This document shows, piece by piece, positions 6,906-29,877 of a DNA stretch of 38,490 nt. Source of the DNA: Planctomycetaceae bacterium. Lineage in GTDB: Bacteria > Planctomycetota > Planctomycetia > Pirellulales > UBA1268. The DNA lies in assembly GCA_947449135.1 (NCBI GenBank), contig CANFQO010000025.1, forward strand, positions 1 to 38,490, written 5' to 3'. The translations under genes were made by a program, and so were the position numbers. Every line of letters begins with the position of its first letter. Position 1 is the stretch's first letter. The notes below the pieces were generated by a model. That model ran no database searches and was not told where the DNA came from. It worked only from the letters and a program-made list of their open reading frames with translations.

Positions 6906-8693
6906 ATGAGCCCCGAGACATTGCTCCAGAATTGGCAGGCGGTCCTGACGGCATGCGTCGTGTTCTGCACTCTTGCCGCGTTGCTCTTTGGCCAACGCGG
7001 CCCCGACATGGCGATGATCGGCGGGGTCGTGGTCTTGCTGGCGGCGGGCGTGCTCGCTCCCGATGAGGCACTCAAGGGGATGAGCAACGAGGGCATGATC
7101 ACGGTGGCGGCACTCTTCGTGGTGGCCGCTGCCGTGGAACGGACAGGCGCTCTGGCCGCTCTCGTTGACCGGGCACTCGGACGGCCTGAGTCCCTGGCCT
7201 CGGCCCAGATGCGGACGATGGTCGGCCCGGCGACCCTCTCCGCCTTCATGAACAACACACCCGTGGTGGCCCTGATGGTGCCGGCAATCCGCGACTGGGC
7301 CAAGAAGCACCGGCTGAGCGTGTCGAAACTGCTCATGCCAATGAACGCCGCCGTGGTGCTGGGCGGCCTCTGCACCCTGATCGGCACCAGCACCAACGTC
7401 GTCGTGAGCGGCCTGTTGGCTGCGAAGACAGGCCACCCCCTTGGCATGTTTGAAATCTCGTGGCTCGGTGTGCCGCTCTTGCTGGCCGGCCTTGTGTATC
7501 TCGTCTTCGCCAGCAAATACCTGCTCAAGGATCGGCGGCCTGCGGTCAGCCCGAGCGACGACCCGCGGCAGTATTCGCTCGAGATGCTCGTCGAACAGGG
7601 CAGTCCGCTTGTCGGCCGCTCCATCGAGGAGGCGGGACTGCGCGGCCTCGACGGTCTGTTTCTGATGGAAATCGAACGTGGCGGGCATGTGTTTGCGGCT
7701 GTGTCTCCGACCGAGCGGTTGGAAGCGAACGATCGGCTCGTTTTCGTGGGCGTCGTCGATTCCGTCGTCGAATTGCAGAAGATTCGTGGCCTCCGTCCCG
7801 CCACCGATCAGGTCTTCAAACTCGACGATCCCCGCTCGGAGCGGACGCTGATCGAGGCGGTGGTGTCGAACACGTGCCCGCTGATCGGTCGGACGATTCG
7901 CGAAGGCCGCTTCCGATCGACCTACGACGCGGTGGTGATTGCCGTCGCCCGCAACGGCGATCGGTTGCAGATGAAAATTGGCGACATCACGCTCGAGCCC
8001 GGCGACACGCTCCTGCTGGAGGCGAGCCGGGATTTCGCGGAGCATCAGCGGAGCAACCGCGATTTTTATCTCGTCAGCGCCGTGAGCAACTTCACCCCGC
8101 CTCGGCACGATCACGCCTGGATCGCCTGCACCGTGCTTGCAGCCATGGTGCTCGGGGCGACGCTCGAGCTGGTGCCGATGGTGGCGGCCGCCCTCGTCGC
8201 TGCCGCGATCGTCGTCGCCATGAAATGCATCTCGTCTGACGAGGCGAGGCAATCGATCGAGTGGGAGTCGCTGCTGTTGATCGCGGCGAGCTTCGGCCTG
8301 GCCCGTGCCATGGAGAAGACGGGGCTGGCAGAGGCGATCGCGCAATCGACGATCGCCGCAGCGGGCGACCATCCGCATGTCGTGCTGGCGGCAATCTACT
8401 TCGTGACGATGCTGTTCACCGAATTGATGAGCAACAACGCCGCCGCCGTGCTGACCTTTCCGATTGCCTGGCAGACGGCCACCGATCTGGGCGTCAGCCC
8501 GCTGCCGTTCGTGATGGCGGTGACGGTGGCCGCAAGTTGCGGCTTCGCCACGCCGATGGGCTATCAGACGAACCTGATGATCTACGGCCCTGGCGGCTAT
8601 AAATTCAGCGACTACGTCCGCTTCGGCGGGCCGCTGAATCTGCTGGTGATGGCGATCACGGTGGCGCTGGCGCCGCTGATCTGGCCTTTCTGA
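6906..8693 (+). CDS. SLC13/DASS family permease with two RCK_C (TrkA-C) domains
   Basis: This 595-residue membrane protein has two transmembrane halves flanking a cytosolic insert. The first half carries MNNTPVVALMVP and LCTLIGTSTNVVVSG, and the second MSNNAAAVLTFPIA and GFATPMGYQTNLM. These are the paired hairpin signatures of the divalent anion:sodium symporter family. The insert (about 222-392) contains two RCK_C modules, each opening with a VGRSI/IGRTI motif and ending in an LEANDRL/LEPGDTL turn. DASS proteins of this architecture include sulfate transporters and the algal SAC1/SLT group. A sulfate role is plausible given the cys operon 620 bases downstream but is inferred. The start MSPETLLQNW is chosen because hydrophobic segments follow at once; upstream in-frame codons are Pro/Arg-rich. 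No clear ribosome site is seen. Confidence 0.9.
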   Translation: MSPETLLQNWQAVLTACVVFCTLAALLFGQRGPDMAMIGGVVVLLAAGVLAPDEALKGMSNEGMITVAALFVVAAAVERTGALAALVDRALGRPESLASAQMRTMVGPATLSAFMNNTPVVALMVPAIRDWAKKHRLSVSKLLMPMNAAVVLGGLCTLIGTSTNVVVSGLLAAKTGHPLGMFEISWLGVPLLLAGLVYLVFASKYLLKDRRPAVSPSDDPRQYSLEMLVEQGSPLVGRSIEEAGLRGLDGLFLMEIERGGHVFAAVSPTERLEANDRLVFVGVVDSVVELQKIRGLRPATDQVFKLDDPRSERTLIEAVVSNTCPLIGRTIREGRFRSTYDAVVIAVARNGDRLQMKIGDITLEPGDTLLLEASRDFAEHQRSNRDFYLVSAVSNFTPPRHDHAWIACTVLAAMVLGATLELVPMVAAALVAAAIVVAMKCISSDEARQSIEWESLLLIAASFGLARAMEKTGLAEAIAQSTIAAAGDHPHVVLAAIYFVTMLFTELMSNNAAAVLTFPIAWQTATDLGVSPLPFVMAVTVAASCGFATPMGYQTNLMIYGPGGYKFSDYVRFGGPLNLLVMAITVALAPLIWPF

Positions 8694-8730: not shown

Positions 8731-8856
8731 GCAAACACTGTTTGCTGGTACTGCGCATGGCATCCTGCCATGCAGATCGAAGACAACGCTCACCATCCTG
8801 CCGCCATGACAGGCGGATGCCTGTCTGTAGCTAGTGCTTGGGCGACCTCCGGTCGC
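8731..8856. repeat. Cluster of four short perfect inverted repeats
   Basis: Directly after the terminator come GCAAAC-act-GTTTGC (8731-8745), GCATGGC-atcct-GCCATGC (8755-8773), ACAGGC-ggat-GCCTGT (8809-8824) and GCGACC-tcc-GGTCGC (8842-8856). Each has a 6-7 bp perfect stem and a 3-5 base loop. They lead into the dispersed repeat at 8899. No credible coding sequence spans the region. Confidence 0.7.
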
Positions 8857-8898
8857 TGGTGTTGGAGCGCATCTGAGTTCGCTGTACGACTCGTGAAC

Positions 8899-8991
8899 GG
8901 AGCCGGGGGTCGGGGGAAGCCGAAGCGAGTAGGGCTATCCTGCCCCCGAGTCGGAGGCTTTCACCGCCCCCGGCGGTTTGGGCCGCCAGAC
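8899..8991. repeat. Dispersed intergenic repeat, copy 1
   Basis: This 93-base stretch aligns without gaps to 29039-29131, with 85 identical positions by hand count. It contains TATCCTGCCCCCGAG followed by CGGAGGCTTTCACCGCC, and ends in overlapping GC-rich inverted repeats (ACCGCC/GGCGGT and GGCGG/CCGCC). Identity is lost immediately on both sides. It has no open frame with protein-like content. Confidence 0.85.
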
Positions 8992-9233
8992 AACTCTAAG
9001 GCCGCCATCCAGGCAACCAACGCAAGGCACGCGCAGGAGCCGGTGAATTCTGCGACTCACGAGCGATGTCCGATTCGTCCAAGAGCCTCCCGTAGCAGAA
9101 TCCGCCGGCGACGAGCATGCCGCAGCCGGCGAACCAGTGCGGCCTGTCAGCACCTCTTAAAGACCGTAACGAATAAACACAAATACATATACAGCAAAGA
9201 CTTAAGACACGTACTAAAGAATACATTACTACG

Positions 9234-9312: not shown

Positions 9313-10383
9313 GTGAACCGCTCCTTCCTGACGCCCGGTCCTTCTTTCCAGCCATTGGCCCAGGCCGTGGTAGTCCTGCTCGCAGCCGCCACCGTCGGCT
9401 GCTCCGGCTCCTCGTCCACCCCCGGGGCGGCAAACCGGCCCGCGGCAATCGAACTGCTCAATGTGTCGTATGACCCGACCCGCGAACTCTACCGCGACAT
9501 CAACGCGGCGTTCGCAAAGCACTACGAGCAGGAACACGGCACACCCGTCACGATCAAGCAGTCACACGCCGCATCGGGCAGCCAGTCACGCGCCGTCATC
9601 GACGGCCTCGATGCCGACGTCGTCACGCTGGCCACCTGGCCCGACGTCGAAGCGGTCGCCAAGTCAGGCCTGCTTCGTCCCGACTGGCAGAACCGTTACG
9701 AGAACGGCTCGATTCCCTACCACTCGGTCGTCGTCTTTGTGGTCCGCAAGGGCAACCCCAAGCAGATCCGCGACTGGGCCGATCTCGACCGCGACGACAT
9801 CTCGATCATCACGCCCAACCCCAAGACGTCGGGCAATGGGAAGTACAGCTTCCTCGCGGCCTGGGGCGCGGCACTCGCGGCGGGCGGCAGCGAGGATGAC
9901 GCGCAGAAGTTTGTCTCGGCGATCTATCGCCGCACCCCCGTGCTCGATACCGGCGCCCGGGCCGCCACCGCCACCTTCTCGCAGAAGGGGATCGGCGACG
10001 TGCACCTGACCTTCGAGCAGGAGGCCCACCTCGAGGTCGACGAATCGAAGGGCGGTCTCGAGATCGTCTATCCAAAGTGTTCGATCCGTGTCGATCCGCC
10101 TGTGGCCGTCGTGGACCAAAACGTCGACCGCAAGGCCTCCCGGCATGCGGCTGAGGCCTACCTCGGTTTCCTCTACTCCCCCGAGGGTCGAGCGATCATT
10201 GCCAAACATCATCTGCGGCCCTGGGGCGACACTCCGCCGCCGCCCGCCGCCGGCGAAACCTGGCCCGCTATTGAGACCTTCGACATCGCATTCGTCGCTG
10301 GCGACTGGAACAACGCCATGAAGAAGTTCTTCGGCGAAGGCGGCGTGTTCGAAGCCATCTACCAGCCCCACACCGGAAACTAG
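9313..10383 (+). CDS. cysP: Sulfate ABC transporter substrate-binding lipoprotein
   Basis: This 356-residue protein is the sulfate/thiosulfate-binding component of the importer encoded by the next three genes. It has the family signatures LLNVSYDPTRELY, ASGSQSRAVIDGLDADVVTLA, NPKTSGNGKYSFLAAWG and DVHLTFEQEA. A hydrophobic signal segment precedes TVGC (C30), a near-lipobox, so the mature protein is probably tethered to the cytoplasmic membrane. The start is GTG; no ATG lies between the promoter and the signal sequence in this frame. It is the first gene of the operon, behind the promoter at 9234. Sbp and CysP cannot be told apart by inspection, so thiosulfate specificity is open. Confidence 0.93.
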   Translation: MNRSFLTPGPSFQPLAQAVVVLLAAATVGCSGSSSTPGAANRPAAIELLNVSYDPTRELYRDINAAFAKHYEQEHGTPVTIKQSHAASGSQSRAVIDGLDADVVTLATWPDVEAVAKSGLLRPDWQNRYENGSIPYHSVVVFVVRKGNPKQIRDWADLDRDDISIITPNPKTSGNGKYSFLAAWGAALAAGGSEDDAQKFVSAIYRRTPVLDTGARAATATFSQKGIGDVHLTFEQEAHLEVDESKGGLEIVYPKCSIRVDPPVAVVDQNVDRKASRHAAEAYLGFLYSPEGRAIIAKHHLRPWGDTPPPPAAGETWPAIETFDIAFVAGDWNNAMKKFFGEGGVFEAIYQPHTGN

Positions 10384-27412: not shown

Positions 27413-29008
27413 TTGTACGACTCGCTGCTGGATGAACTCGAGGACGATGTTGTCTCCACTCCCCAGGAGGTCGAGGAACTGGCCGACAAGGTCGTCGATG
27501 CCGAGGAGGCCGATGCCGACCTGCTCGTCGACGACGCCGATGCAACGGTGATCCCCGATGCCGAAATTGAAGCAGAGGCAGAGTCGGAGATCGAGGCGAC
27601 CGGCGAGGGGGAAGATGTCCTCATCGAGCAAGTCGAGAACTGGTCGGATGACCCCGTCCGAATGTATCTGACTCAGATGGGTGAAATCCCCCTGCTGACC
27701 CGGGCGCAGGAGATCTACCTCGCCCGCCAGATCGAAACCACGCGGGCACAGTTCCGCGGCAAACTGCTGGAATGTGAATACGTCTGCCAGCAGGCTTTCA
27801 AGGTGCTTTCACGCGTGCATCGTGGCGAACTGCCCTTTGACCGCACGGTGCAGGTGTCGGTCACTGACCGGCTGGAGAAGGATCAGATCCTCGGCCGCCT
27901 GCCGCACAACCTGCGGACACTTGAGGTGTTGCTGCGTCAAAACCGTGCCGACTACCGGATCTCGCTGTCGAAGAAACGGAAGATGGCAGAGCGTCGTGAA
28001 GCGTGGGGCAGGCTGGGCCACCGCCGTCGCCGCTGCGTGCGATTGATCGAGGAGTTGGGCCTGCGGACCCAGCGGATCGAGACCATGATCCCGACGCTCG
28101 ACAACTTCGTCGTGAGGCTCAAGGAACTGCGCAGCAAGATCGAAGCCCACCGTCGCACCAAGCAACCGCCGGTTGGCCGGCAGAAGCTGATCGAGGAATA
28201 CCGGGCAATCCTCAAGGCCTGCCAGGAGACGCCTCGTAGCCTCAAGCGGCGAATGGACGAGATTCGTGAGATCTATGCCCGTTACCAAAAGGCGAAGCGC
28301 GGCCTCTCGGAGGGAAATCTCCGGCTCGTCGTGTCGATCGCGAAGAAATACCGCAACCGCGGCCTATCCTTCCTCGACCTGATTCAGGAGGGCAATGCCG
28401 GCCTGATGCGGGCGGTGGACAAGTTCGAGTACCGCCGCGGCTTCAAGTTCTGCACGTATGCCACGTGGTGGATTCGGCAGGCGATCACCCGTGCGGTGGC
28501 CGACCAAAGCCGCACGATCCGCATCCCGGTGCACATGGTGGAGACGATGTCCCGCGTGCGGAACGTCGCCCGGCAGTTGCTCCAGGAATATGGCCGCGAG
28601 CCGTCGATCGAGGAAATCGCCGCCCGGGCGGGCACACCAGTGGACGAGACGCGTCGTGTCACGGCGATGAGCCGCTACCCGATCAGCCTCGACCGCCCTG
28701 TGGGCAACAGCGAAGACAGCCACTTTGGCGATCTGCTGCCCGACACCGGCGCCGAGAATCCTGCCGTGGGTGCCGCACAGGAGATGCTCCGCAACCGGAT
28801 CGCGAAGGTGCTGAAGTCACTGAGCTACCGGGAGCGGGAGATCATCAAACTGCGGTATGGGTTGGGCGACGGCTACAGCTACACGCTGGAGGAAGTGGGC
28901 CACATCTTCAAGGTGACCCGCGAGCGTATTCGCCAGATCGAGGCCAAGGCAGTCCGCAAGCTGCAGGCTCCGGCCCGCAGCGAGGAACTCTCCGGGTTTC
29001 TTGATTAA
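27413..29008 (+). CDS. rpoD: RNA polymerase sigma factor, RpoD/SigA type
   Basis: The 531-residue sigma70 factor has an acidic N-terminus (1-75), region 1.2 ([19 protein letters not shown], 79-97), a ~190-residue basic helical non-conserved region, and region 2 from about 300 ([48 protein letters not shown]). Region 3 ([22 protein letters not shown]) and region 4 ([35 protein letters not shown]) follow, as in a principal sigma. The start appears to be TTG, giving (f)[14 protein letters not shown] sits 8 bases upstream, an in-frame stop lies at 27383, and no ATG or GTG occurs between. The acidic leader does not resemble the classical region 1.1 closely. Whether it is the sole housekeeping sigma cannot be decided here. 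Confidence 0.93.
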
Positions 29009-29038: not shown

Positions 29039-29131
29039 GGAGCCGGGGGTCGGTGGAAGCCGGAGCGAGTTGGGCTATCCTGCCCCCGAGTCGGAGGCTT
29101 TCACCGCCCACGGCGGCTTGAGCCGCTTGAC
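29039..29131. repeat. Dispersed intergenic repeat, copy 2
   Basis: Ungapped partner of 8899-8991 in the same orientation (85 of 93 bases identical). It lies between the convergent rpoD and cysC genes. Its right end contains GCGGCT-tg-AGCCGC, a perfect 6-bp hairpin in which two of the eight differences between the copies fall. No T-run follows. Confidence 0.85.
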
Positions 29132-29181
29132 GACGGTCGGCTGCGTCCGAGCGCACGGCTAGCCCACTGACGCAGTCGTCG

Positions 29182-29877
29182 TCACGACCGTGACGGGATC
29201 TTGCCAGCCTTCTCCAGCCACGCGATCACCTGGTCGGCCAACTGGTCGGCTGGAGTGGCGGCCGAGTCTACGGCCAGCTCAGGGCTCAGCGGCTCCTCGT
29301 AGGGATCATCGATGCCTGTGAAGCCCTTGATCTCGCCCGCCCGTGCCTTCTTGTAGAGCCCCTTGGGGTCTCGGCTCTCGCAGACCTCCAGTGGTGCCCG
29401 CACGTGGACCTCCACGAAATCGCCCGGTGGAAGCATGGCGCGGACGGCATCGCGATCGCTGCGATAGGGGCTGATGAAGGCTGTCAGCGCAATGATGCCC
29501 GCCTGAGCAAAGAGTTCGGCCACGGCCCCGATCCGGCGGATATTCTCTTCGCGATCTTGGGCTGCGAATCCCAGGCCAAACCGCTGGGCAAACTCGTCGC
29601 CATGCCGCTCCCGCAGGAGTGCCGGGGCTGCGTTCAATCCCAGCCGCACGTTGTCGCCATCGAGCACGAAACTTCGCACACCACGGCTGTGGAGCCGGTG
29701 GTCAACGAGGTTGGCGAGCGTGCTCTTACCGCAGCCCGAGAGCCCCGTGAACCAGAGCACGCACCCCCGGTGACCGGCGGCCCGCTCGCGCTCGTCGCGG
29801 CTGACCGCATGGGCGTGCCAGCGGACATCGATCGTTTCGCTCGTTCCCGGACCGTTCATTGCCTGGCTCTTCGTCAT
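29182..29877 (-). CDS. cysC: Adenylylsulfate kinase (APS kinase)
   Basis: The enzyme phosphorylates APS to PAPS in sulfate activation. The 231-residue protein has Walker [10 protein letters not shown] (45-53), [12 protein letters not shown], the [20 protein letters not shown] stretch, [10 protein letters not shown] and the lid region [27 protein letters not shown], all characteristic of CysC. It is a stand-alone kinase with no fused sulfurylase or GTPase domain. The first ATG is preceded by AAGGAG at 12 bases; a second, six codons later, is possible. No cysD/cysN or sat is in the window. The downstream side holds a dispersed repeat. Confidence 0.95.

Follow-up and report, generated by a model that had tools for sequence, protein, structure and literature searches.

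The window, which is the whole 38,490-nt stretch of DNA analysed here and belongs to a 3.69-Mb draft genome (G000), contains two copies of a short intergenic repeat. Copy 1 follows a citrate/sodium-type transporter gene (6906-8693, +) and precedes a solute-binding-protein gene (9313-10383, +). Copy 2 separates the tail of a sigma-70-type gene (27413-29008, +), whose stop codon TAA occupies 29006-29008, from that of a convergent APS-kinase gene (29182-29877, -), all of these genes being named from Pfam. In the related genome G004, the orthologous place of copy 2 is also occupied by a copy (L184). The following features were recognised.

8744..8775, + strand: piece of a second, multi-hairpin repeat (97% match)
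8863..8900, + strand: left arm of copy 1 (pattern match with two mismatches, sequence)
8901..8974, + strand: copy 1, 74-nt hairpin core with loop TATCCT (BLAST and covariance-model matches)
8975..8998, + strand: right arm of copy 1, shortened (sequence)
29041..29114, + strand: copy 2, 74-nt hairpin core (BLAST and covariance-model matches)
29115..29150, + strand: right arm of copy 2, assigned by position, being too degenerate for recognition by sequence

The left terminal repeat of copy 1, TGGAGCGCATCTGA at 8863-8876, stands about 8 nt closer to the core than usual, and the TA at 8997-8998 probably marks the end of its right arm. In the right arm of copy 2, the best arm match is 8/14, a value reached by 0.6 of shuffles.

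The first-pass annotation of this DNA had described 8899-8991 and 29039-29131 as a dispersed, non-coding, mobile or REP-type repeat of 91% gapless identity with sharp edges and internal palindromes. The pair does align without gaps, with 85 of 93 positions identical (91.4%) and mismatches at repeat positions 16, 25, 33, 72, 79, 83, 89 and 90. Five of the eight fall in the right part, four of them in the decaying arm beyond the 3′ end of the hairpin core, and the right-hand stem in which compensatory changes had been anticipated is where the two window copies mostly differ. Sharp edges are seen for the conserved core, whereas the complete element runs out into decaying arms of about 46 nt on the left and 36 nt on the right.

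Family size and the hairpin core

With copy 1 as the BLAST query, 46 places were found in G000, 40 of which extend over most of the repeat or at least over the first 58 of its bases; the best non-self match (E = 7.5e-39) is far above chance. The covariance model R1, for which 26 copies were used, located at least 51 places in this genome at E <= 1e-4, a lower bound since only 68 of 3,761 first-look candidates were scored. The family is therefore not limited to the two window copies. A hidden protein-coding segment was likewise rejected as the source of the similarity, because 49 of the 50 examined copies fall between predicted genes. The remaining one (L030:3003-3076) lies in frame within a predicted glycosyltransferase-like gene, where it separates the hydrophobic N-terminal part from the catalytic domain.

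In the family-level group of G000, R1 matches 24 of 72 genomes, which represent 8 of the 12 genera. The counts are 51 in G000, 39 in G004 (a genome only 72% complete), 20 in G012, 18 in G007 and 12 in G021; within the genus of G000, G003 has six and G001 five, and G002 has no match at E <= 1e-4. A wider sample of the order gave matches in 14 of 246 genomes, all 14 from the window's taxonomic family, and in a sample of the phylum G000 alone matched (1/294, with none in the 293 other genomes); both searches scored few candidates per genome (19 and 16, respectively), so that weak copies would be missed. The exact core pattern was found at 27 loci in records titled Planctomycetaceae and Planctomycetia metagenome genomes and in one titled Candidatus Kuenenia stuttgartiensis. 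In this last record (L070, CAMCQY010000157.1), the contig number, coordinates and score of the core are identical to those in G001, and the name on the record may be a labelling error. The core pattern gave no match in viral contigs, and Rfam gave none in the window at the curated score, in either the gathering- or the permissive-threshold run.

The conserved unit is a 74-nt hairpin with a GC content of about 73% (8901-8974 and 29041-29114 in the window), and the presence of internal palindromes, noted at first reading, is supported. The 93-base stretch folds well (z = -3.2; 0/200 shuffles as good). For covariation, 106 matches (99 distinct) from 99 chosen sources were fitted to the model. In this alignment 94.6% of cells pair, double changes occur in 18 of the 22 core pairs, and the core covariation score is 0.260 compared with 0.098 for shuffles, all of which score lower, and at most 0.061 for slid controls. 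The pairing of the core is thus supported by covariation. Compensatory changes, which had been looked for in the right-hand stem, are present in the stems of the main hairpin instead and above all at its tip, where GGGC/GCCC, GGCC/GGCC, GGCG/CGCC and AGCG/CGCT alternate below a TATCCT loop that is nearly invariant, other genera included. Two orthologous pairs (L013/L064 and L033/L087) have different but compensated tips, which may reflect compensatory change or exchange between copies.

The strand as written has 110 G.T pairs and only 18 A.C pairs, or 49 and 18 when one conserved wobble is left out, p-values for this comparison being only a guide as the sequences are related. This excess of G.T therefore suggests that one single strand, RNA or DNA, is selected or recognised rather than a symmetrical double-stranded site. 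For the opposite strand, whose loop reads AGGAT, a CsrA-like interpretation was also considered.

Arms, insertion sites and gene tails

Better-kept copies reach TAGAGCGCATCTGG at the left and the inverse CCAGATGCGCTCTA at the right, at a near-fixed distance from the core, and the arm ends form a terminal inverted repeat, GAGCGCATCTGG...CCAGATGCGCTC. Such terminal inverted repeats are a feature of MITEs; here they are found in the better-kept copies, many copies being degenerate and many lacking recognisable arms. A typical right arm is about 36 nt long with TA at +35/+36. Of 36 ordinary copies, 13 have the dinucleotide at one of these two positions, compared with nine occurrences in total over 33 further offsets, and no clear TA excess was seen at the left end. 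Identity across eight orthologous pairs is 93% for the core (551/591) and 73% for the arms (387/527). An extra hairpin adds about 30 nt in L038, L039, L042-L044 and L155-L162.

Other repeated modules occur in the same places. At L192:978-1137 (G000:C26:4777-4936), a second core type with the common base stem, another tip and no TATCCT loop stands between the same arms. The multi-hairpin repeat (82-nt unit, loops such as ATCCT), seen at 8744-8775 in the window and at L028:2105-2186, L043:3079-3158 and L020:2902-2983, abounds in the genus and frequently stands upstream of the core, attached to it; it is often joined to a 24-nt piece from the first half of the core, and in G007 its units are arranged in tandem about 98 nt apart. 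Directly 3′ of copy 1, another repeat (9025-9155; about 107-131 bp) recurs at about 40 places in G000, mostly at 90-98% identity. All four sister genomes carry many more copies, with identities of about 92-98%, although for many of the orthologous flanks there the figure is only about 75-92%. This repeat has no clear Pfam match, and folding of its minus strand, to which the fold analysis was confined, gave an unremarkable energy.

For placement relative to genes, genes were called with a home-made dicodon gene caller and background gaps were taken from loci chosen around copies. Convergent gaps account for 21 of the 47 gaps holding a copy and for 22 of 171 copy-free gaps in these loci (p = 6e-6). 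The excess persists against background gaps of at least 60 nt (21/47 versus 11/95, p = 3e-5), and divergent gaps are avoided (1/47 with a copy versus 22/95, p = 0.001). Convergent gaps are again the largest class among 40 copies from relatives (16/40, with three divergent). The right arm ends no more than 2 nt from a convergent stop codon in 18 of the 35 copies that have a gene tail on that side, and the left arm is near a stop in 9 of 35. Among the stops within 130 nt, TAG accounts for 17/34 on the right side and 13/30 on the left, compared with 64 of 225 genes in the loci.

The tetranucleotide CTAG is depleted about 13-fold in the own-genome loci (269 kb outside elements), with 65 sites compared with about 870 expected from composition; 11 of these are at stop codons, 21 are intergenic and 33 are in genes. 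Targeting of CTAG together with loss of harmful insertions would suffice to place the element at stop codons. A supply of the stop codon by the element itself was considered and dropped for L038, where TAG is present in the empty orthologues as well.

Filled and empty sites between relatives, another MITE feature, were found when G001-G004 were searched with the joined flanks of 18 copies. For 11 copies, 18 orthologous loci could be aligned over the junction or near to it, and none has the core at E <= 10. The family, dispersed and non-coding as the first-pass annotation had it, thus differs in presence and absence between sister genomes. The sole clean TA duplication is that of L018 versus L179, in which T-TA-AGCGAC becomes T-TA-[element]-TA-GGCGAC; in the empty orthologues of L018, two stop codons overlap as TTAA (read by eye). 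Also by eye, the stop codons are 1-2 nt apart in four empty orthologues of L016 and 6 nt apart in those of L026; the L016 and L026 junctions have no TA. Most other filled/empty junctions are too diverged for a TA duplication to be read. At one junction of two gene tails, copies in G000 (L024:3003-3076) and G004 (L082:106-179) have opposite orientations. Site-specific inversion was not retained for this pair, as independent insertion explains it equally well, and a second apparent flip (L031/L076) was set aside as a composite place at a contig end.

A cis-acting structured RNA or terminator, selected at each gene tail and spread only secondarily, would account for the covariation, the tolerance of G.U on one strand, the persistence of the core while the arms decay and the placement behind genes. 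Orientation to transcription is, however, random in tandem gaps (13 sense, 12 antisense). The core is also absent from orthologous tails in sister species and, at the model threshold, from G002 of the same genus, and no T run accompanies the hairpin in the aligned copies. We regard a primary role of this kind as quite improbable. Spread by recombination, template switching or palindrome slippage with no dedicated enzyme would fit the tandem copies that relatives have at spacings of about 98, 101, 253 and 295 nt, and the 24-nt pieces common to the starts of composite arrays. It fits poorly with terminal inverted repeats and with single copies scattered over unrelated gene tails, orthologous sites being empty, and is very improbable as the main route.

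Candidate movers and comparable repeats

As the first-pass annotation had stated, no visible transposase is tied to the repeat, the families searched being Y1, PF13358 and PF01609. Its suggestion of a REP-type family, in the strict sense, was not supported. Movement by a Y1 transposase (HUH, RAYT/TnpA-REP) recognising the single-stranded DNA form of the hairpin would agree with the strand-specific pairing, with the extragenic placement at gene tails and with the several Y1 genes found in the taxonomic family. Yet the one Y1 gene of G000, a RAYT-like gene at L093:1195-1878, is flanked on both sides by an inverted repeat of a different family (GCGGAAATTCA/TGAATTTCCGC). None of the 14 Y1 loci fetched from this genome and its relatives holds the core (best E 1.1), and no Y1 gene was found in the 72%-complete G004, with its 39 copies. 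The rare class 3 TnpA-REP, found mainly in Planctomycetes, is described in the excerpted text of PMC6006769 as having atypical flanking structures and a CnGA foot; no constant CnGA foot precedes the stem in the aligned copies, and TA-bearing arms are not expected of such an element. A Y1-driven origin is thus unlikely, and a RAYT-driven REP is not supported.

IS630 and DDE_Tnp_1-type transposases were also considered as mobilisers and rejected for the own genome, where no PF13358 or PF01609 gene was found; L208 of G003, checked as an autonomous partner, has no arm-like ends. Draft metagenome assemblies often lose insertion sequences. The absence of an autonomous partner bars membership of the IS630 family and not of the MITE kind, because most bacterial repeats of the MITE kind have no known partner, RUP having a proposed one (PMC2229807, in excerpt).

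Among known systems, as represented in the excerpts of the cited papers, RUP, BOX and Correia/NEMIS are closest in build and placement (PMC2229807, PMC3049150). RUP of Streptococcus pneumoniae is a 107-bp intergenic repeat with terminal inverted repeats and a TA target, over-represented between convergent genes (PMC2229807, PMC3049150), and the planctomycete element is likewise short and intergenic, with terminal inverted repeats, a probable TA target and an excess between convergent genes. RUP ends match IS630-Spn1 and RUP is AT-rich, whereas no matching transposase was found for the present element, which has a GC-rich core and a conserved loop. BOX, also of S. pneumoniae, is similarly modular, with variable internal modules, structured when transcribed and enriched between convergent genes (PMC3049150); the planctomycete modules, in contrast, consist of exchangeable tips carried by one constant base stem, with a further, optional hairpin, and the sequence is unrelated. 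Correia/NEMIS elements of Neisseria (about 107 and 155 bp) are likewise folded, have terminal repeats and carry TA at their ends (PMC2229807). By their descriptions they are set apart by longer terminal repeats (24 bp), whereas the constant part of the planctomycete element is its centre and not its ends. REP/RAYT systems resemble it as many-copy extragenic palindromes with a hairpin that favours one strand, but REPs are 20-40 bp long, most with a GTAG or CGTC tag (PMC3733652, in excerpt). No such tag by a 20-40 bp palindrome was seen when the aligned copies were read by eye, the hairpin being 74 nt long and having no linked RAYT. In the open-access literature searched, as far as its accessible text goes, no planctomycete repeat of the same kind is described, class 3 TnpA-REP being the nearest (PMC6006769).

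Taken together, the repeat is probably a non-autonomous, MITE-like mobile element of about 160 bp that inserts at TA/CTAG, often inside stop codons, and retains its hairpin core as the arms decay. Its putative layout is TA, a left arm of about 46 nt, the 74-nt core (about 30 nt more with the extra hairpin), a right arm of about 36 nt and TA. We infer that a transposase acting in trans, not seen in G000, would insert the element at TA, preferably in CTAG. IS630 itself reportedly prefers TA in CTAG (ascribed to Tenzen and Ohtsubo, 1991), and ISY100, an IS630 relative, duplicates TA (PMC2170065, in excerpt). As the element starts with G, insertion into a TAG stop would restore TAG, and tail-to-tail gene junctions would tolerate the element because of this restoration; insertions elsewhere in genes or in promoters would be lost. 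After insertion, the arms would drift, and the core would be kept by selection on the folded single strand or by exchange between copies. Against this reading, strong interior covariation is not required for a plain MITE, and there is one clean TA duplication only, no left-end TA excess and no matching PF13358 or PF01609 gene in the genome. The element likely works like a MITE, a likeness that stops short of placing it in a named MITE or IS family.

A more tentative proposal is that the core, with its fixed TATCCT loop and exchangeable tips, could be a domesticated, strand-specific single-stranded structure (RNA or ssDNA), spread by the MITE and then kept at gene tails. If so, convergent genes would gain a shared structured tail while the transposition arms decay.

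Small structured repeats such as the BOX, RUP and Correia elements have been described in a few bacterial groups, and their movers are mostly unproven. The planctomycete family adds unusually strong covariation and many pairs of filled and empty sites, by which end structure, the choice of stop codons as targets and the fate of the hairpin after insertion become measurable. In addition, a working covariance model has been obtained for the annotation of planctomycete genomes.
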